A DNA stretch of 64,000 nt from Pseudomonas coleopterorum (GTDB taxonomy: Bacteria; Pseudomonadota; Gammaproteobacteria; Pseudomonadales; Pseudomonadaceae), in assembly GCF_900105555.1 (NCBI RefSeq), contig NZ_FNTZ01000001.1, positions 1,302,001 to 1,366,000 of the forward strand, read 5' to 3'. The translations under genes and the position numbers were made by a program. Position 1 is the stretch's first letter. Every line of letters begins with the position of its first letter. This document shows, in pieces, positions 11,709-31,072 of this stretch. The notes under the pieces are model-generated. The model searched no databases. It had not been told where the DNA came from and saw only the letters and a program-made list of their open reading frames with translations.

Positions 11709-12305
11709 ATGTCCAGACCTCAATGCCCTCGCTGCCAACGTCCTCAGGCCCTGTGCCTGTGTGCGTTGATCCCGAACCTGCCCAGCCGAACGCGGGTGCT
11801 GATCCTGCAGCATCCCAGCGAGGTGGATCACGCGCTGAATACGGCGCGCCTGGCCGCGTTGGGCTTGCAGAACTGCGAGATCATGGTCGGCGAAGTATTC
11901 GCTGACCTGGCGCGGTGGCTGGCACAGCCAGGCTATCAGCCCTGTCTGTTGTTTCCCGATGAGCGCAGTGAAGCTTTGAGTGTCTACGCGCCGGATGCTC
12001 AGCCAAGGTTGCTGGTGGTGCCCGACGGCACCTGGCGCAAGGCGCGCAAGCTGCTGCACCTCAATCCGCTGCTCGCCGACCTGCCCAGGGTTCAGCTGGC
12101 CGCTGCCGAGCCCTCGCGTTATCGGCTGCGCAAGGCGCCTGGTCCGGGCGCGCTGTCGACCGTAGAGGCCATCACCCAGGCTCTGGAGGTACTCGAAGCA
12201 CCGGCCTCGTTCCAGGCGCTGCTCAGGCCCTTCGACGCACTCATCGAAGGGCAGATCGCCGCCATGGGTGAAGAGGTTTATCTGCGCAACCATCAACGCC
12301 AGTAA
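11709..12305 (+). CDS. DTW-domain tRNA-uridine aminocarboxypropyltransferase-like protein
   Basis: 198 aa from ATG 11709 (MSRPQCPRC). DTW-domain enzymes such as E. coli TapT/YfiP transfer the 3-amino-3-carboxypropyl group of S-adenosylmethionine to uridine in tRNA. The N-terminal cysteine cluster (CPRCQRPQALCLC) probably binds zinc, and the family motif appears as PDGTWRKARK near residue 107. Earlier in-frame ATGs at 11676 and 11694 are possible but add residues not typical of the family. It ends 3 bp before the convergent HAD gene. Confidence 0.8.
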   Translation: MSRPQCPRCQRPQALCLCALIPNLPSRTRVLILQHPSEVDHALNTARLAALGLQNCEIMVGEVFADLARWLAQPGYQPCLLFPDERSEALSVYAPDAQPRLLVVPDGTWRKARKLLHLNPLLADLPRVQLAAAEPSRYRLRKAPGPGALSTVEAITQALEVLEAPASFQALLRPFDALIEGQIAAMGEEVYLRNHQRQ

Positions 12306-23624: not shown

Positions 23625-23639
23625 GCACATAAAGGGTGC
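23625..23639. promoter_or_regulatory. Candidate NtrC enhancer site upstream of nasA
   Basis: GCAC-N7-GTGC, the core of the NtrC consensus (TGCACC-N5-GGTGCA), centred about 101 bp upstream of the expected start of the sigma-54 promoter. This is a usual NtrC distance. Confidence 0.6.
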
Positions 23640-23706: not shown

Positions 23707-23722
23707 TGGCGCATGGATTGCA
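23707..23722 (+). promoter_or_regulatory. Sigma-54 promoter of nasA
   Basis: TGGCGCATGGATTGCA matches the -24/-12 consensus TGGCACG-N4-TTGCW, with the invariant GG and GC exactly 10 bp apart. Expected transcription start is near 23733, 120 bp before the nasA ATG. Together with the NtrC-like site this predicts expression under nitrogen limitation. Confidence 0.75.
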
Positions 23723-23741
23723 AGCCTGCGCACTACACAAT

Positions 23742-23829
23742 GCAATCGATGCCGATTGCCTCCCACACGACAACGGTGCCGTGCTGCCCGCTCTGATGAG
23801 CGCAGGCAGCTGGCGCCGTTTTTGTTTTT
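23742..23829 (+). promoter_or_regulatory. nasA leader: two hexaloop hairpins and an intrinsic terminator (ANTAR/NasT-type)
   Basis: Hairpin 1 (23742-23759) is GCAATC/GATTGC around loop GATGCC. Hairpin 2 (23766-23783) is CACGAC/GCCGTG with one A-C mismatch around loop AACGGT. The terminator (23772-23829) pairs AACGGTGCC with GGCGCCGTT, then GCTGCC with GGCAGC and CGCTC with GAGCG, and ends in TTTTTGTTTTT. Hairpin 2 uses the 5' strand of the terminator, so the two cannot coexist. Two six-base loops with A1 and G4 are the known target of ANTAR antiterminators such as NasT; loop 1 here has G at position 1. Confidence 0.7.
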
Positions 23830-23852
23830 GTCGCCAGCAGCGAGGAGGGTCG

Positions 23853-26800
23853 ATGACCGCCACTTCAGTGCGTAGCGTGTGCCCCTACTGCGGCGTCGGC
23901 TGCGGTATCGTCATGACTGTCGAGAGCGGCCGCGTGGTCAAGGTCAGCGGCGACAAGCTGCATCCGGCCAACGCCGGACGCCTGTGCACCAAGGGCAGCA
24001 CCTGCGCCCAGCCGCTCAGCGATCCGGGGCGCATGCAGCACGCCTACCTGCGCGAGAACCGTGATCACGAGCCGGTACAGTCGAACATGGACGCCGCCAT
24101 CGCCGCGGCCGGCAGCCGCCTGCGGCTGATCCTCGATGAGCATGGCCCCGATGCCCTGGCCTTCTACGTCTCCGGGCAGATGTCGCTGGAAGCCCAGTAC
24201 CTGGTCAACAAGCTTGCCAAGGGGTACGTGCGCACGCGGCATATCGAATCCAACTCGCGGCTGTGCATGGCCAGCGCCGGCAGTGGCTACAAGCTGTCGT
24301 TGGGCGCCGATGGCCCGCCCGGCTCATACGATGATTTCGATCAGGCCGAGGTGTTTCTGGTGATCGGCGCGAACATGGCCGACTGTCATCCGATCCTGTT
24401 CCTGCGCCTGCTCGATCGCCTCAAGGCCGGCGCCAGGCTGATCGTCGTCGACCCACGGCGCAACGCCACTGCCGACAAGGCCGACCTGTTCCTGCAGATC
24501 GAGCCGGGCACCGACCTGGCGCTGCTCAACGGCCTGCTGCACCTGCTGCACGCCAACGGCGCGACCGACCCGGCGTTCATCGCCGCGCACACCGAAGGCT
24601 GGGAGGACATGCCGGCTTTTCTGGCCGATTACACGCCAGCCCGAGTCGCGCAGATCACCGGCCTCGACGAACAGGCGATCCGTCAGGCCGCGCAGTGGAT
24701 CGGCGGCGCGGCCAACTGGATGAGTTGCTGGACCATGGGGCTGAACCAGAGCATCCACGGCACGTGGAACACCAACGCGCTGTGCAATCTGCATCTGGCC
24801 ACCGGCGCCCTCTGCCGTCCGGGCAGCGGACCGTTCTCCCTGACCGGCCAGCCCAACGCGATGGGCGGGCGCGAAATGGGCTACATGGGCCCAGGCCTGC
24901 CCGGCCAGCGTTCGCTGCTGGTGGCGGCCGATCGGGCCCACGTCGAAACACTCTGGGGCATTGCCCCTGGCAGCTTGCGTGAAGAAGGCAACGCCGGCAC
25001 CGTCGACCTGTTTCGGCAGATGGGCGAGGGCGCGATCAAGGCGTGCTGGATCATCTGCACCAACCCGGTGGCCAGTGTCGCCAACCGTCAGCAGGTCATC
25101 GATGGCCTGCAGGCGGCAGAGCTGGTGATCACCCAGGATGCCTTTCTCGACACCGAGACCAATCGCTATGCCGACGTGCTGCTGCCCGCCGCGCTGTGGG
25201 CCGAGGCCGAAGGGGTGATGATCAACTCCGAGCGCAACATGACCCTTATGCGCAAGGCTGTCGACGCACCGGGGCAAGCCCTGCCGGACTGGCAGATCAT
25301 CGCCAAGGTGGCCTGCGCCATGGGCTTCGCCGAGGGCTTCGACTACGCCAGTGCCGAACAGATCTATGAAGAGCTGCAACGCTTCGACAACCCGCAGAGC
25401 GGTTACGACATCCGCGGCGCCAGCTACGCGCAACTGCGCCAGCAGCCACGCCAATGGCCTGCGCTGCCAGGGCAGGAGGGTGTGCGCAGCCCGATTCGCT
25501 ACCTCACCGAGGCAGGCGTGCGCTTTCCCACCGCCAGCGGTCGTGCTCGGTTCTTCGCCCGTCCGCACCTGCCAGCCGCCGATCAGCCCGACGCCGAGTT
25601 CGCCATGGTGCTCAACACCGGTCGCTTGCAGCATCAGTGGCACACGCTGACCAAGACCGGCAAGGTCGCCACCTTGAACCGGCTCGACCCTGGGCCGTTC
25701 ATCGAGCTTCATCCCGACGACGCCGAGCGTCTGGGCATCGGCGAGGCCGATCAGGTGCAGGTCCGCTCGCGGCGCGGCCAGGCGGTATTGCCGGCCCGCC
25801 TCAGCGACCGGGTACGGCCGGGCAATTGCTTCGCGCCCTTTCACTGGAACGACGTGTACGGCAGCGATCTGGCCATCAATGCCGTGACCAGCGACGCCAC
25901 CGATCCGCTGTCGCACCAGCCGGCCTTCAAGTTCGCCGCCGTGGCGCTGCAACGCGTCGGCTCGCCGAAAATCGCCCTGCAGAACCTCGATGCCGACGCG
26001 CCTGACGGTGTCGCGGCAAGCGACGGGCAGGCGGCCATCCAGGTGCTCTGGGCTTCGCAGACCGGCACCGCGCAGGCCATCGCCGAACGCTGCGCGCAGA
26101 CCCTGCGCGAGCGTGGCGCATCGGTCGCTCTGCGTGGCCTGCACGAGATCACCCCGGCCGAGTTGCTCGCCGCCCATGACCTGTTGCTGATCACCAGCAC
26201 CTTTGGCGATGGCGATGCACCGGACAATGCCACGCGCCTGTGGGCCCAGTTGCAGGCCACGCAGACCGAGCCTTGTGCAGACCTGCGCTATGCCGTGCTG
26301 GCGCTGGGCGATTCCAGTTACGCGCAGTTCTGCGGCTTTGCCCGCAAGCTGGACGAGCGCCTGACCCAGCTGGGCGGAAAGCGTCTGCTCGAACGCGTCG
26401 AGTGCGAGCCTGACGATCAGGCGCCTGCCGAGCGCTGGATACAGGCCGCCAGTCTGCTGCTTGCCGGACCAGCGTCCAGTTCAGTGGCTGAATCGGTGGC
26501 CGGTTCGGTTGCGGCAGAAGCTGCGTTGTATACCCGTCAGCGACCCTGGCTGGCGCGCGTCCTGCACAATCAGGTGCTCAACGCCGCCGGCACCGAGAAG
26601 GAAGTGCGCCATGTGGTGTTCGACTTGAAGGACAGCGGCCTGGTCTATGAAGCGGGCGATGCCCTTGGCGTATGGCCGAGCAACTGCATGAGCCTGGTCG
26701 AGGAACTGCTGGCCTGCCTTGGCCTGGACAGCAGCGAGCGGGTCCTGCTCAAGGGGCACGGCGAGCAGCCGCTGGCGGTGGCTTTGCACAAGCATCTGGA

Positions 26801-27644
26801 CATCACGCGCATCACGCCGCAGTGGCTGGCATTTCTGAGCGAGCGCTGCGCCGATCCGTTGTTGGCCTCGTTGCTCGAACCGGCCAACGCTGTCCAACTG
26901 CAGCAGTGGTTGTGGGGTCGGCAACTGATCGACCTGCTCGAAGCCTTTCCGGTGACGCTGACCACCCAGGAACTGCTCGGCCTGCTCAAGCCCTTGCAGC
27001 CGCGGCTGTACTCCATCAGCTCCAGCGCTCGCACTGACCCGCATCAGGTGCACATCACCTTGTCGACCGTGCGTTACCAGTGCAACGAGCGCGTGCGCAG
27101 TGGCGTCTGCTCGGGCTTCCTGGCCGATCGCTCGGCAGCGGCGCTGGTGCCGATCTTCGTTCAAAAGACCCGTCAGTTCCGCGTGCCCAGCCAGGCCGAT
27201 ACGCCGATGATCATGGTCGGCCCGGGCACCGGCATAGCGCCGTTTCGCGCCTTCCTTCACGAGCGCCAGGCGCTGGGTCATCACGGGCGCAACTGGCTGT
27301 TGTTCGGCGAGCAACGCGAGCACAGCGACTTCTACTACCGCGACGAACTGCACGCCTGGCTGCGCAGCGGGCATCTGCACCGGCTGGATACGGCGTTCTC
27401 CCGCGATCAGGCGGAAAAGATCTACGTCCAGGACCGCTTGCGCCAGCAGGGCGCCCAGGTGTGGCAATGGTTGCAGCAGGGCGGGCATTTCTATGTCTGC
27501 GGCGATGCCAGCCGCATGGCCAAGGATGTCGACGCAGTGCTGCGCGACGTAGTGGCCGAACACGGCGCCATGAGCACGCAGCAGGCCGAGGCTTACCTGG
27601 CCCAGTTGAGCCGGGACCGGCGTTATGTGCGGGATGTGTACTGA
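23853..27644 (+). CDS. nasA: Assimilatory nitrate reductase fused to a CysJ-like NADPH flavoprotein
   Basis: 1263 aa. Residues 1 to about 710 are a molybdopterin nitrate reductase: an N-terminal 4Fe-4S site (Cys10, Cys13, Cys17, Cys45) and the molybdopterin-guanine-dinucleotide-binding domains. From about residue 728 a flavodoxin domain follows ([14 protein letters not shown]), and from about 890 an FAD/NADPH reductase domain like CysJ, ending in [10 protein letters not shown]. The fusion supplies its own electron path from NADPH through FAD and FMN to the iron-sulfur centre and molybdenum. ATG 23853 has GAGGAGGG upstream. It reduces nitrate to nitrite for NirBD. Confidence 0.92.
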
Positions 27645-27673: not shown

Positions 27674-27686
27674 TTGTATCAGGGAG

Positions 27687-27758
27687 GGCCTCTTCGCGGG
27701 CAGAGCCCGCTCCCACACTGAAATCCTTGTGGGAGCGGGCTCTGCCCGCGAAGAGGCC
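27687..27758. repeat. Perfect REP inverted pair between nasA and nirB
   Basis: Two 31-bp arms (27687-27717 and 27728-27758) are exact inverted copies of the element starting GGCCTCTTCGCGGGCAGAGC, separated by 10 bp. It lies after the nasA stop and just before the nirB promoter, so it may cap the nasA transcript. Confidence 0.95.
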
Positions 27759-27784
27759 CCATCTGACACTCCCCAGACAAACCC

Positions 27785-27800
27785 TGGCACGCAACCTGCT
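27785..27800 (+). promoter_or_regulatory. Sigma-54 promoter of nirBD
   Basis: TGGCACGCAACCTGCT matches the -24/-12 consensus at nearly every position, with GG and GC 10 bp apart. Expected start is near 27811. It gives nirBD its own promoter, separate from nasA. Confidence 0.8.
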
Positions 27801-27819: not shown

Positions 27820-27908
27820 GGTGCTCAACGACGATCACCCCACCGGACACCCTCATTTCGACGATCAGGCAAAGGCGCCTGGAGCATTCGCTCCAGGCGT
27901 TTTTTTTT
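27820..27908 (+). promoter_or_regulatory. nirBD leader: ANTAR (NasT) antiterminator hairpins and terminator
   Basis: Hairpin 1 (27820-27839) is GGTGCTC/GATCACC with one mismatch and loop AACGAC. Hairpin 2 (27865-27882) is TCAGGC/GCCTGG with loop AAAGGC. Both loops have six bases with A at position 1 and G at position 4. The terminator (27876-27908) is CGCCTGGAGC/GCTCCAGGCG with loop ATTC and nine Ts, and its 5' strand is shared with hairpin 2. Nitrate-responsive antitermination by the ANTAR protein NasT before nirB is established in P. aeruginosa and for nas genes in Azotobacter. nirB starts 40 bp after the T run. Confidence 0.85.
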
Positions 27909-27948: not shown

Positions 27949-30510
27949 ATGAACGCGCTCGTGAACCTCAAGCCCCGGCAGAAACTCATCGTCGTCGGCA
28001 ACGGCATGGTGGGGCATCACTGTGTCGAGCAGTTGATCGAGCGCAGCGCGGTCGATCGCTACGAGATCCACGTCTTCGGCGAAGAGCGCCAGCGGGCGTA
28101 TGACCGGGTGCACCTTTCCGAATACTTCGGCGGCTCGTGTGCCGAAACCCTGGCCCTGGGCGACGCCCAGTTGTACGGCAGGCACGGCGTCACCTTGCAC
28201 CTGAGCCAGCCGGTGATCGAGATCGACCGTCAGGCCCGCGAAGTGGTCACCGCCAACGGGCGGCATGCCTACGACATACTGGTACTGGCCACCGGTTCGT
28301 TCCCGTTCGTGCCACCGATTCCGGGCTGTGAGGGCAACGCGCGGCTGGTCTATCGCACCCTGGATGATCTGGACGCGATCCGCGCCGCAGCGGTCGGGGC
28401 GCGCCGTGGCGTGGTGGTCGGCGGCGGGCTGCTGGGCCTGGAAGCGGCCAACGCCTTGAAGTCGCTGGGGCTGGAAGCGCACGTGGTCGAGTTCGCTTCG
28501 CGGCTGATGCCGGTGCAGCTGGACGCCGAAGGAGGCGCGGCGTTGCGCGCGCGTATCGAAGCCCTGGGGGTAGGCGTGCACACCTCGCGCGCCACGCAGA
28601 ACGTGGAGGCCGGCGAGACCCATCGTTATCGGATGAATTTCGACGGCGGCGAATGCCTGGAAACCGACCTGATCGTGTTCTCGGCCGGTATCCGCCCTCA
28701 AGACGCATTGGGCCGCGCCAGCGGGCTGGAGATCGCGGCCCGTGGCGGTATCGTCATCGACCCGCACTGCCGCACCAGCGACCCGGCGGTGTATGCGATC
28801 GGCGAGTGCGCCTCCTGGAACGGCAGCATCTTCGGTCTGGTAGCGCCCGGTTACAGCATGGCCCGCAACATCGCCTGCGAATTGGCCGGGGAAACGCCGG
28901 TGGCGTTCAGCGGCGCCGACATGTCCACCAAGCTCAAGCTGCTCGGGGTCGACGTGGGTTCCATCGGCGACGCCCATGCCAGCACGCCAGGCGCCAAGAG
29001 CTACCGTTTCATCGACGAAGCCAACGCCAGCTACCGGCGCCTGGTGGTGGACGCCAGCGGTAAACGGGTTCTCGGCGCCGTGCTGGTCGGCGACAACAGC
29101 TACTACGACACCCTGCTGCAATACGCGCAGAACGGCATCGCCCTGCCGGCCGACCCGTCGACGTTGATCCTGCCGCTGTCCGACGGCGCACCGGTTCTGG
29201 GCGCCGACGCGCTGCCCGACACGGCCATGATCTGCTCCTGCCACAACGTCAGCAAAGGTGCGATCTGTTCCGCCATCGACGGCGGTTGCGGCGACCTCTC
29301 GGCGCTCAAGTCGCAGACCAAGGCCTGCACCGGCTGTGGCGGCTGCGCCGCGCTGCTCAAGCAGGTCTTCGAGCATGAACTGACGGCCCGTGGCGTGACG
29401 GTCGACAAGAGCCTGTGCGAGCACTTCGCCTACACCCGCGCCGAGCTGTACGCGCTGGCCCGTGTCGAAGGCATCGCCAGCTTCGAGGACATGCTCGCCC
29501 GCCACGGACGCGGTGCGGTGGGCTGCGACGTGTGCAAGCCCACCGTCGGCAACATCCTCGCCTCGTGCTGGAACCAGCCGATCATGGACCCCTCGCTGGT
29601 GCCGCTGCAGGACACCAACGACACCTTCATGGCCAACATGCAGAAGAACGGCACCTACTCGGTGGTGCCGCGCATTCCCGGCGGTGAGATCACCCCGGAC
29701 AAGCTCATCGCCATTGGCGTGGTGGCTAAGAAATACGACCTCTACACCAAGATCACCGGTGGCCAGCGCATCGACCTGTTCGGCGCACAGTTGCACGAGC
29801 TGCCGGAGATCTGGAGTGAACTGATCGAAGCGGGCTTCGAAACCGGGCATGCCTACGGCAAGTCGACCCGCACCGTGAAGTCCTGCGTGGGCAGCACCTG
29901 GTGTCGTTACGGCGTGCAGGACAGCGTGGCCATGGCCCTGCGCATCGAGGACCGCTACAAGGGCCTGCGCTCGCCGCACAAGCTCAAGTTCGCGGTATCG
30001 GGCTGCACCCGCGAGTGCGCCGAGGCGCAGAGCAAGGACATCGGCGTGATCGCTACGGAAAAGGGCTGGAACCTGTACGTCTGCGGCAACGGTGGCATGC
30101 GGCCGCGTCACGCCGAGCTGTTTGCCACCGACCTGGATGACGAGCAACTTATCCGCTACATCGACCGCGTGTTGATGTTCTACATCCGCACCGCCGACAA
30201 GCTGCAGCGCACCTCGGTGTGGCGCGAAAATCTGGAAGGCGGCCTGGAATTCCTCAAGCAGGTGGTCCTGGAAGACAGCCTGGGCGTGGGCGCCGAACTC
30301 GAAGCGCAGATGCAGCGGGTGGTCGATCACTATGAATGCGAATGGGCCAACGCCCTGAAGGATCCGGAAAAGCTCAAGCGCTTCCGCACCTTCGTCAATG
30401 ACAAGCGCGCGGACCCCGGCGTGCAGTTCGTCAAGGAACGCGGCCAGCGCCGCCCCGCCCATGCGGGCGATGTCGTGACGTTGATCCCGGTGGTCGAGGA
30501 GGTGGTGTGA
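27949..30510 (+). CDS. nirB: Assimilatory nitrite reductase large subunit
   Basis: 853 aa. The order of domains is an N-terminal FAD/NAD(P)H reductase (IVVGNGMVGHHC, GGGLLGLEAANALK), a BFD-like 2Fe-2S region (CSCHNVSKG ... CTGCGGC), and a C-terminal siroheme/4Fe-4S reductase with SCVGSTWCRYG and SGCTRECAEAQ as cluster ligands. It reduces nitrite to ammonium with NADH or NADPH. ATG 27949 is preceded by CAGGAGA. It lies in a transcription unit with nirD, under the leader described above. Confidence 0.97.
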   Translation: MNALVNLKPRQKLIVVGNGMVGHHCVEQLIERSAVDRYEIHVFGEERQRAYDRVHLSEYFGGSCAETLALGDAQLYGRHGVTLHLSQPVIEIDRQAREVVTANGRHAYDILVLATGSFPFVPPIPGCEGNARLVYRTLDDLDAIRAAAVGARRGVVVGGGLLGLEAANALKSLGLEAHVVEFASRLMPVQLDAEGGAALRARIEALGVGVHTSRATQNVEAGETHRYRMNFDGGECLETDLIVFSAGIRPQDALGRASGLEIAARGGIVIDPHCRTSDPAVYAIGECASWNGSIFGLVAPGYSMARNIACELAGETPVAFSGADMSTKLKLLGVDVGSIGDAHASTPGAKSYRFIDEANASYRRLVVDASGKRVLGAVLVGDNSYYDTLLQYAQNGIALPADPSTLILPLSDGAPVLGADALPDTAMICSCHNVSKGAICSAIDGGCGDLSALKSQTKACTGCGGCAALLKQVFEHELTARGVTVDKSLCEHFAYTRAELYALARVEGIASFEDMLARHGRGAVGCDVCKPTVGNILASCWNQPIMDPSLVPLQDTNDTFMANMQKNGTYSVVPRIPGGEITPDKLIAIGVVAKKYDLYTKITGGQRIDLFGAQLHELPEIWSELIEAGFETGHAYGKSTRTVKSCVGSTWCRYGVQDSVAMALRIEDRYKGLRSPHKLKFAVSGCTRECAEAQSKDIGVIATEKGWNLYVCGNGGMRPRHAELFATDLDDEQLIRYIDRVLMFYIRTADKLQRTSVWRENLEGGLEFLKQVVLEDSLGVGAELEAQMQRVVDHYECEWANALKDPEKLKRFRTFVNDKRADPGVQFVKERGQRRPAHAGDVVTLIPVVEEVV

Positions 30511-30872
30511 TGCAGGCAATCGAAGCTGTGCAGGCGATGACCTGGCAAGCGGTGTGCGAGCGGTCGGACCTGATCGCCAATTCCGGTGTGGTGGTGTGGC
30601 TGGACGGTGAGCAGATCGCATTGTTCTACCTGCCCGGAGCGGGCGAGGGCAGGGTGCTGCACGCCATCGACAACCACGACCCGCGCTCGGGCGCCAACGT
30701 GCTGGGCCGCGGAATCGTCGGGTACCTGCAAGGGGAGTTGGTGGTGGCGGCGCCGCTGTACAAGCAGCATTACTGCTTCAGCGACGGGCGCTGCCTGGAG
30801 GCGCCGGATCAGCATGTCAGGGTCTGGCCGGTGCGCTTGAATGGGGATCGGGTGGAGATTGGCAGGATGTAG
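30510..30872 (+). CDS. nirD: Assimilatory nitrite reductase small subunit
   Basis: 120 aa Rieske-like NirD subunit. It resembles the Rieske fold but lacks the Cys/His cluster ligands, as is normal for NirD. Start ATG 30510 is favoured over GTG 30507, as GAGGAGG lies 7 bp upstream; it overlaps the nirB stop by 1 bp (TGATG), so the two subunits are coupled. A REP pair begins 12 bp after its stop. Confidence 0.93.
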   Translation: MQAIEAVQAMTWQAVCERSDLIANSGVVVWLDGEQIALFYLPGAGEGRVLHAIDNHDPRSGANVLGRGIVGYLQGELVVAAPLYKQHYCFSDGRCLEAPDQHVRVWPVRLNGDRVEIGRM

Positions 30873-30884
30873 GTAGGTCTTGCT

Positions 30885-30983
30885 GGCCTCTTCGCGGGCA
30901 GAGGGCTTGCCGCCCGCCCCGCTCCCACAATGGTCCGGCGTACGCACATTAATGTGGGAGCGGGCTCTGCCCGCGAAGAGGCC
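30885..30983. repeat. REP inverted pair after nirD
   Basis: A 45-bp arm (30885-30929) and a 31-bp inverted arm (30953-30983) of the same REP type as elsewhere. The first arm has an extra insertion (GGCTTGCCGCCCGCC) in the middle. It sits between nirD and the PcaQ-like gene. Confidence 0.9.
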
Positions 30984-31072
30984 CTCACTACCAAAGCAAA
31001 CCCCAAGGCCACTGCTCCCATAAGAAAGCTCGATGTGCAGGGGCCCTCACTACCAAAGCAAACCCCAAGGCC
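30981..31072. repeat. 30-bp direct repeat, 62-bp period, upstream of the PcaQ-like gene
   Basis: The sequence GCCCTCACTACCAAAGCAAA and the next 10 bases occur identically at 30981-31010 and 31043-31072. The first copy begins in the last bases of the REP arm, and the second ends 19 bp before the regulator's ATG, so the duplication has reshaped its promoter or leader region. Confidence 0.9.

Follow-up and report, generated by a model that had tools for sequence, protein, structure and literature searches.

A putative NasR-driven ANTAR leader with an altered first hairpin loop upstream of nasA in Pseudomonas coleopterorum

Introduction

Which ANTAR protein would control nasA, the assimilatory nitrate reductase gene of Pseudomonas coleopterorum, through the leader that precedes it? 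The question is raised by a stretch of 64,000 nucleotides from contig NZ_FNTZ01000001.1 (assembly GCF_900105555.1, positions 1,302,001 to 1,366,000), the whole of which is called the window here. The initial annotation of this DNA proposed that nasA has its own sigma-54 promoter and an ANTAR-type antitermination leader of two hairpins, that the leader has the layout of a NasT target, and that it guards nasA separately, as a second leader beside the antitermination known before nirBD in P. aeruginosa. The promoter, the leader and its separation from the nirBD leader are supported below, each leader having a sigma-54 element of its own. NasT as the regulator is not.

Two-hexaloop ANTAR leaders are already known, as are NasR and NasT (PMC3369931, PMC7496416; see also PMC3795266), and the dependence of nasA (PP_1703) and nirBD on NasT is published for P. 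putida (PMC7261876). The two-hexaloop target is the published ANTAR signature, defined by A at the first (A1) and G at the fourth (G4) loop position, and it has served in searches for leaders of this kind. Should one hexaloop suffice for a branch of NasR, searches demanding both overlook real sites.

Results

The nasA Leader and Its Promoter

The sigma-54 element TGGCGCATGGATTGCA was confirmed at 23707-23722. It is one of five exact matches to TGGCNCN5TTGCW in the window; with at most one mismatch, 29 sites are found against a shuffle mean of 15.8, and none of 100 shuffles is as high. Its positions T1, G2, G3, T13, G14 and C15 are unvarying across 39 aligned nasA leaders. The predicted transcription start is about 120 nt upstream of the nasA ATG (23853).

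Two hairpins, designated P1 and P2, and an intrinsic terminator occupy this interval (Table 1). The outer arms of the terminator, AACGGTGCC (23772-23780) and GGCGCCGTT (23812-23820), pair with each other, and the 3' end is TTTTTGTTTTT (23819-23829). The 5' strand of the terminator consists of loop 2 and the 3' arm of P2. The P2 hairpin, with A1 and G4 in its loop (AACGGT) and formed at the expense of the terminator, is as expected of an ANTAR leader, whereas the loop of P1 (GATGCC) carries G4 and has G in place of A1. We infer that the nasA leader works like an ANTAR leader, yet departs from the strict definition.

The whole leader folds at -49.5 kcal/mol (z-score -6.6; 0 of 200 shuffles as low), and P1 and P2 folded without the terminator give a z-score of -2.0 (6 of 200 shuffles as low). 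The P1 stem folds at -9.0 kcal/mol with its own loop and at -6.8 kcal/mol when carrying a loop of the NasT type. The two loop sequences given in the initial annotation stand, but their six-base size is not confirmed as written: the fold closes loop 1 by a G1-C6 pair and, under a condition weighed in the Discussion, loop 2 as well.

The ANTAR Proteins of the Genome

The genome of P. coleopterorum, listed as 100% complete, encodes two ANTAR proteins, AmiR (AmiR_N and ANTAR domains) and a NIT-ANTAR protein; all 54 ANTAR candidates were scored, and no receiver-ANTAR NasT is among them. The NIT-ANTAR protein matches PF08376 with 164.5 bits and PF03861 with 59.5 bits, shows the order of a NIT and then an ANTAR domain that characterizes NasR, and is similar to the NasR structure 4akk with the E-value 1.8e-45. 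A cognate ANTAR protein for a dual-hairpin leader is therefore encoded in the same genome. Its gene, nasR, is located about 328 kb from the nasA leader, beside transport genes. The regulator of the nasA leader is probably NasR, not NasT. Open reading frames of about 650 amino acids with a NIT domain are presumably chemoreceptors.

Among 50 named genomes, NIT-ANTAR proteins were found in six Pseudomonas, and also in four enterics and Hydrogenophaga. The remaining 39 lack a NIT-ANTAR protein and show an ANTAR match scoring between 59 and 67 bits; the domain check for NasT covered two of these 39 (L099 and L109). In four of the six NIT-ANTAR Pseudomonas, the second ANTAR protein is of the AmiR type (L311, L313, L315, L316). 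The third ANTAR protein of G010 (L312) and the second of G021 (L314) have an N-terminus with only a weak fit to both AmiR_N and the receiver domain; no second ANTAR protein was found in G013. None of these extra proteins begins like NasT proteins. In a draw of 398 Pseudomonas genomes, NasR without a NasT-class protein was found in 15, and NasR together with a NasT-type receiver-ANTAR protein in four (G119, G202, G237, G274); the absence of NasR was judged from the best few candidates per genome (6 and 16 scored), and NasT is putative at the level of single genes. One genome of the draw (G136) has a canonical nasA leader (L282) and no ANTAR protein among the 16 best candidates scored, which indicates a missed gene or an orphan leader.

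In a NasA tree of 56 rows made with a quick method, the NasR rows are in four or five places: P. coleopterorum with L012 and L063; L022; L024 with L032; L021; and G386, which is on the same unresolved fork as the P. coleopterorum clade. L021 and G386 are long-branched, and the change count given by the tool (2) left most rows unlabelled. Several hand-overs of the regulator, or transfer of nasA, are suggested.

Association of Loop 1 with the Regulator

Hairpin 1 was classified with a strict finder, which demands a hexaloop closed by C-G with A1 and G4 and at least five of seven stem pairs; of 2700 shuffled segments, 13 satisfy these demands. Hairpin 1 of the nasA leader is canonical in all 45 named NasT-type leaders and in all 86 leaders from genomes of the draw without NasR, versus one of eight NasR-only Pseudomonas, whose NasA rows occupy four or five positions in the tree. 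Fisher values for this contrast disregard relatedness and are based on five lineages. Location before nasA was the basis for choosing the named leaders, and the 86 were retrieved with a hairpin 2 pattern. The regulator was examined for 39 of the 45 named loci, the remaining six being L053, L076, L080, L087, L089 and L091; of these, L076, L089 and L091 equal G127, G131 and G390, genomes of the draw in which a NIT-ANTAR protein was looked for and not detected. The 86 leaders derive from 100 fetched pattern hits, one each from 100 of the 161 hit-bearing genomes, with NasR genomes and G202 excluded; 14 hits without a sigma-54 element were not counted as leaders. Ten of the 86 are copies of named loci, and G136 is counted among them despite its lack of a detected ANTAR protein. 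The nasA leader of G202, which has both NasR and NasT, passes the strict finder.

In the NasR-only genomes, the loop is GATGCC in P. coleopterorum, L012 and L063, GACGCA in L032, and AACACA in L024. No such loop 1 is found in L022, and no P1 hairpin is predicted in G386. The G-for-A change, earlier proposed to alter affinity, is thus a real deviation shared by three loci, and it goes with NasR; an effect on affinity stays a conjecture.

Leaders beside the regulator gene show the same division. Loop 1 is canonical in 19 of 19 NasT-linked leaders and in 5 of 5 beside nasR in enterics and Hydrogenophaga, and in none of 16 beside nasR in Pseudomonas, the nearest to canonical being G432 and G444 with four stem pairs. 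Three of these 16 are from genomes that also have NasT (G119, G237, G274). No such leader adjoins nasR in five further NasR genomes (G011, G013, G118, G447, G202). For nirB leaders, loop 1 with at least four stem pairs is canonical in 42 of 42 of the NasT type and in six of seven from NasR genomes; the nirB loop picked by the finder in L037 is doubtful, and by eye it is AAAGCC. The scans of nirB and regulator-linked leaders required A or G at the first loop position and G at the fourth in hairpin 2, which partly predetermines the constant loop 2 seen there. Among the genomes examined, the predicted loop-1 signature is lost in NasR genomes only.

Conservation and Covariation

Every one of the 51 named loci of the Pseudomonas type besides the window (50 labelled Pseudomonas and one metagenome-assembled genome labelled Paucimonas) has the sigma-54 element and P2 before nasA. 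Thus, the leader is conserved in relatives, and a leader of nasA itself is not peculiar to P. coleopterorum. The other 29 of the 80 loci of that search (enteric, actinobacterial and Hydrogenophaga) have the sigma-54 element and P2 before nasA in no case. The nirB leader is carried by 49 of 52 Pseudomonas-type loci, the window counted; it was not found in L031, L053 and L072.

In an alignment of 39 rows, 93.6% of the P1 cells are paired, and neither any of 500 shuffles nor any slid version matches the covariation score. Four of the six P1 pairs changed on both sides among relatives, a level reached by 14 of 500 shuffles; the count of pair types is unremarkable (119 of 500 shuffles reach it). 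P1 stem and loop are identical in P. coleopterorum, L012 and L063, while the linkers differ. For the outer arms of the terminator, pairing extends to 99.1% of cells, a level reached by 0 of 500 shuffles. Loop 2 position 3 covaries with the 3' arm of the terminator (A-U in 33 rows, C-G in four, unpaired in two); only one pair of the arms changed on both sides, as 254 of 500 shuffles do. In P2, an A-C mismatch is present in 39 of 39 rows and the remaining pairs are near-invariant. ACGAC of its 5' arm is invariant in all rows though absent from the terminator, and this arm is intact in all eight NasR-only genomes (seven alignment rows and G386). These pairings suggest that selection acts on P1 and the terminator as RNA; P2 is conserved in sequence. 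A covariance model of the 39 nasA leaders (R1) found only the nasA leader in the P. coleopterorum genome (150 of 2450 candidates scored), so the nirB and transport leaders are beyond its reach.

The nirBD Leader and a Third Leader

The nirBD leader (Table 1) folds with a z-score of -5.9, and of -0.4 without the terminator. A third leader of the same build is located elsewhere in the genome (G000:C1, about 1654240-1654163, minus strand), between nasR, which is directly upstream, and genes for an NMT1_2 binding protein, a permease and an ATPase. By layout, the P. coleopterorum genome is predicted to have three ANTAR-type leaders (nasA, nirBD and transport), two of them inside the window.

Table 1. 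Coordinates of the nasA and nirBD leaders and genes in the window. Hairpin loops are in brackets.
Feature	Position	Strand	Remarks
Possible NtrC site GCAC-N7-GTGC (weak)	23625..23639	+	Exact match, 82 bp upstream of the sigma-54 promoter
Sigma-54 promoter TGGCGCATGGATTGCA	23707..23722	+	GG-N10-GC element upstream of nasA
Hairpin P1 GCAATC[GATGCC]GATTGC	23742..23759	+	Loop without A1; G1-C6 pair predicted, tetraloop AUGC
Hairpin P2 (antiterminator) CACGAC[AACGGT]GCCGTG	23766..23783	+	A1 and G4 present; one A-C mismatch in the stem
Intrinsic terminator	23772..23829	+	Outer arms 23772-23780 / 23812-23820 and inner stem; U-tract 23819-23829
nasA (assimilatory nitrate reductase fused to CysJ-like flavoprotein, 1263 amino acids)	23853..27644	+	
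Sigma-54 promoter TGGCACGCAACCTGCT of the nirBD leader	27785..27800	+	
P1 of the nirBD leader GGTGCTC[AACGAC]GATCACC	27820..27839	+	A1/G4 hexaloop; one C-U stem mismatch
P2 of the nirBD leader CAGGC[AAAGGC]GCCTG	27866..27881	+	
Terminator of the nirBD leader CGCCTGGAGC-ATTC-GCTCCAGGCG then T9	27876..27908	+	
nirB (nitrite reductase large subunit)	27949..30510	+	NF011565, TIGR02374 above cut-off
nirD (small subunit, Rieske-like)	30507..30872	+	PF13806; named from position and domain

Relation to the Rfam narK RNA

The Rfam model RF03032 (narK RNA) covers the sigma-54 element, P1 (loop AACGGC) and the P2 sequence (loop AAAGAC). It scores above its gathering threshold at the NasT-linked leader of 19 of 20 loci, and at the nasA leaders of L013, L028 and L086. 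Evidently, narK RNA is the same element as the sigma-54 ANTAR leader. The structure line of the model pairs only P1, which hides P2 and the antitermination logic. The matches coincide with the leader beside nasT in L098-L120 (e.g., L114:1690-1760) and with 23708-23782 in the window. In L099 and L109, the gene next downstream of the NasT-linked leader looks like a narK-type transporter.

In the P. coleopterorum genome, the best RF03032 match is the nasA leader with 28.6 bits, but this is below the gathering threshold of 43.2. The transport leader scores 22.6 and the nirB leader 18.5 bits, followed by the next place with 17.5; the E-values are 0.004, 0.09 and 0.9, and 1.5 for the next. At E-values up to 10, 13 of 14 control genomes also have matches, none above the cut-off. 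The identity of the nirB and transport leaders is therefore based on layout and conservation. No narK RNA match above the RF03032 cut-off was found in 17 other sources, all of them NasR genomes.

Residue N373 of NasR

Replacement of N373 of Klebsiella oxytoca NasR by Ala abolished RNA binding (PMC7496416). The alignment register at this position was fixed by W362 and R366. Asparagine occupies this position in 4akk and in all five NasR loci from outside Pseudomonas, whereas each of the 21 Pseudomonas NasR rows has Gly (15) or Ser (6) there, and four NasT rows have Gln. Taken as a binding residue of the K. oxytoca protein, and not as a definition of the family, it is not shared by the P. coleopterorum NasR, which has Gly. 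The NasR of L021 also has Gly, although the loops of this genome are canonical at both nasA and nirB; the residue alone is thus no predictor of the loop. The difference splits Pseudomonas from other NasR wholesale, and it may be a mark of ancestry only.

Discussion

The region upstream of nasA is probably a nitrate-responsive ANTAR attenuator driven by NasR, as judged from sequence, conservation, covariation and gene content; the transcription start, binding, nitrate response and order of affinities are inferred from these. RNA polymerase with sigma-54 would start near 23733. Input from NtrC under nitrogen limitation is presumed because of the sigma-54 promoter and the enriched upstream motif GCAC-N7-GTGC, which we take to be that of NtrC. 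An exact copy is present upstream of nasA in 13 of 51 regions (window included) versus 14 of 1000 shuffled regions, and a copy with one mismatch in 31 of 51 versus 148 of 1000. The three exact copies in the window, against a chance mean of 4.0, are alone not significant, and upstream of nasA an exact copy is missing from the closest relatives, L012 and L063. By default, the transcript would stop at the terminator near 23829. The one-component NasR, with nitrate or nitrite bound, would hold P2, and since P2 and the terminator are mutually exclusive, the polymerase would continue into nasA. NasR would act likewise on the nirBD leader and on the third leader before the transport genes.

At the nasA and transport leaders, NasR would read mainly P2, and binding would probably be weaker than at nirBD, because P1 there is without the ANTAR loop signature. 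Binding of Klebsiella NasR was observed at about 1 uM for P1P2, against about 12 uM for P2 by itself (PMC7496416). From this roughly 12-fold weaker binding to P2 alone, it is hypothesized that nasA and uptake need more active NasR than nirBD.

A wider scenario is tentatively offered as a possibility. The nitrate regulon of Pseudomonas would have swapped NasT and NasR several times, and NasR with Gly or Ser at the N373 position would accept leaders with a single hexaloop. The first loop would then have been lost at all 16 nasR-linked leaders, which precede transport genes wherever the neighbouring genes were inspected, and also at the nasA leader in three or four NasR lineages out of the four or five that have this gene order; at nirB it would mostly have been kept. 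Nitrite reductase would need less active NasR for its induction than would uptake and nitrate reductase, which would limit nitrite build-up.

Four points weigh against the NasR-driven attenuator proposed here. A1 and G4 of the hairpin loops matter experimentally for EutV and NasR (PMC3369931), and a P1 that breaks this rule might mean weak or no control at nasA. Loop 2 of the nasA leader is also closed, by an A1-U6 pair, once the terminator is omitted from the fold; the loop comparison is therefore based on base identity at position 1, not on predicted closure. P. typographi (L021) has NasR, and yet its loops at nasA and nirB are canonical. Finally, an A1..G4 loop (any closing pair, at least three pairs) is available in each of the leaders of nine additional NasR Pseudomonas whose reductase operon is of another kind; seven of the nine are closed otherwise than by C-G and two pass the strict finder, which speaks against a blanket rule. 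Two NasR reductase-operon leaders, L197 (sigma-54 element at 11904, plus strand) and L199 (12434, minus strand), have three hexaloop hairpins before the terminator, with the loops AACGAC or AACGAT, AGAGAA or AAAGAA, and AAAGGC.

The alternative that survives best is that the altered P1 is the form bound by NasR of this lineage as well as the canonical one, with the three leaders functionally alike. The 16 Pseudomonas nasR-linked leaders without a canonical loop, together with Gly or Ser at the N373 position, a difference on the protein side as well, are consistent with it; it is nonetheless doubtful, as the canonical loop is kept by six of the seven nirB leaders of NasR genomes, which suggests its continued importance somewhere. 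That P1 of nasA is a decaying relic is quite improbable. Control by NasR through the leader would then have been lost, and the terminator would be a fixed attenuator or would be bypassed by another promoter. The loop-1 signature is gone in seven of eight NasR-only genomes and G386 is without a predicted P1 hairpin, but the 5' arm of P2, unneeded by the terminator, is intact in all eight, P1 is identical in three loci with differing linkers, and a strong terminator without relief would silence nasA. Antitermination by NasT, freed from the NasS/NasT pair to bind both hexaloops, is the commoner arrangement among the named genomes, and a nasT deletion mutant of P. putida cannot use nitrate (PMC7261876), but it is refuted for P. 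coleopterorum by the ANTAR proteins of its complete genome, barring a NasT too diverged for the ANTAR profile, and is extremely improbable.

The closest known counterpart of the putative NasR-driven attenuator is nasF of K. oxytoca, which shares the NIT-ANTAR regulator and two hairpins before a terminator, the second overlapping it (PMC3369931, PMC7496416). The same layout with both loops canonical is seen in 4 of 4 enteric loci (L094-L097). Both loops of K. oxytoca nasF are canonical, in contrast to loop 1 of the P. coleopterorum nasA and transport leaders, and N373 of the K. oxytoca protein is replaced by Gly. The NasT leaders of Pseudomonas (nasA, nirBD and the narK-type transporter) are alike in promoter kind, P2, terminator and reductase genes; they differ in having NasT in place of NasR, and A1..G4 in loop 1 of every one examined. 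The eut leaders of Enterococcus, read by EutV, also show dual-hairpin ANTAR antitermination with A1/G4 hexaloops, but have a two-component input and other genes, and loop 1 is required there (PMC3369931). No report of a leader difference between NasT and NasR, or of one-loop leaders, was found in the titles and abstract openings of the open-access literature, a search outside which most subscription papers fall; "narK RNA" had no match in the open-access literature.

The Rfam narK model misses all three P. coleopterorum leaders at its cut-off. Genomes with NasT and genomes with NasR have these target genes in common and so provide a natural experiment in the joint change of an RNA site and its protein. 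Three leaders in one genome are a ready test of an affinity-set gene order in nitrate assimilation.

Other Features

Molybdopterin, flavodoxin, FAD-binding and NAD-binding domains were found in NasA by profile search, and no NCBIfam equivalog is above its cut-off among the best 25 matches listed. Inverted repeats of the GGGCCTCTTCGCGGGCAGAGCCCGCTCCCACA type, which we take to be REP-like, are located at 27685-27760, just 3' of nasA, and at about 30885-30985, 3' of nirD. Matches to Rfam microRNA families at 27685-27760 were rejected, as they are produced by the inverted repeat. In the record of P. putida NBRC 14671, a guanidine-II riboswitch above the Rfam gathering threshold (L086:1822-1873) is located about 3 kb upstream of the nasA leader.

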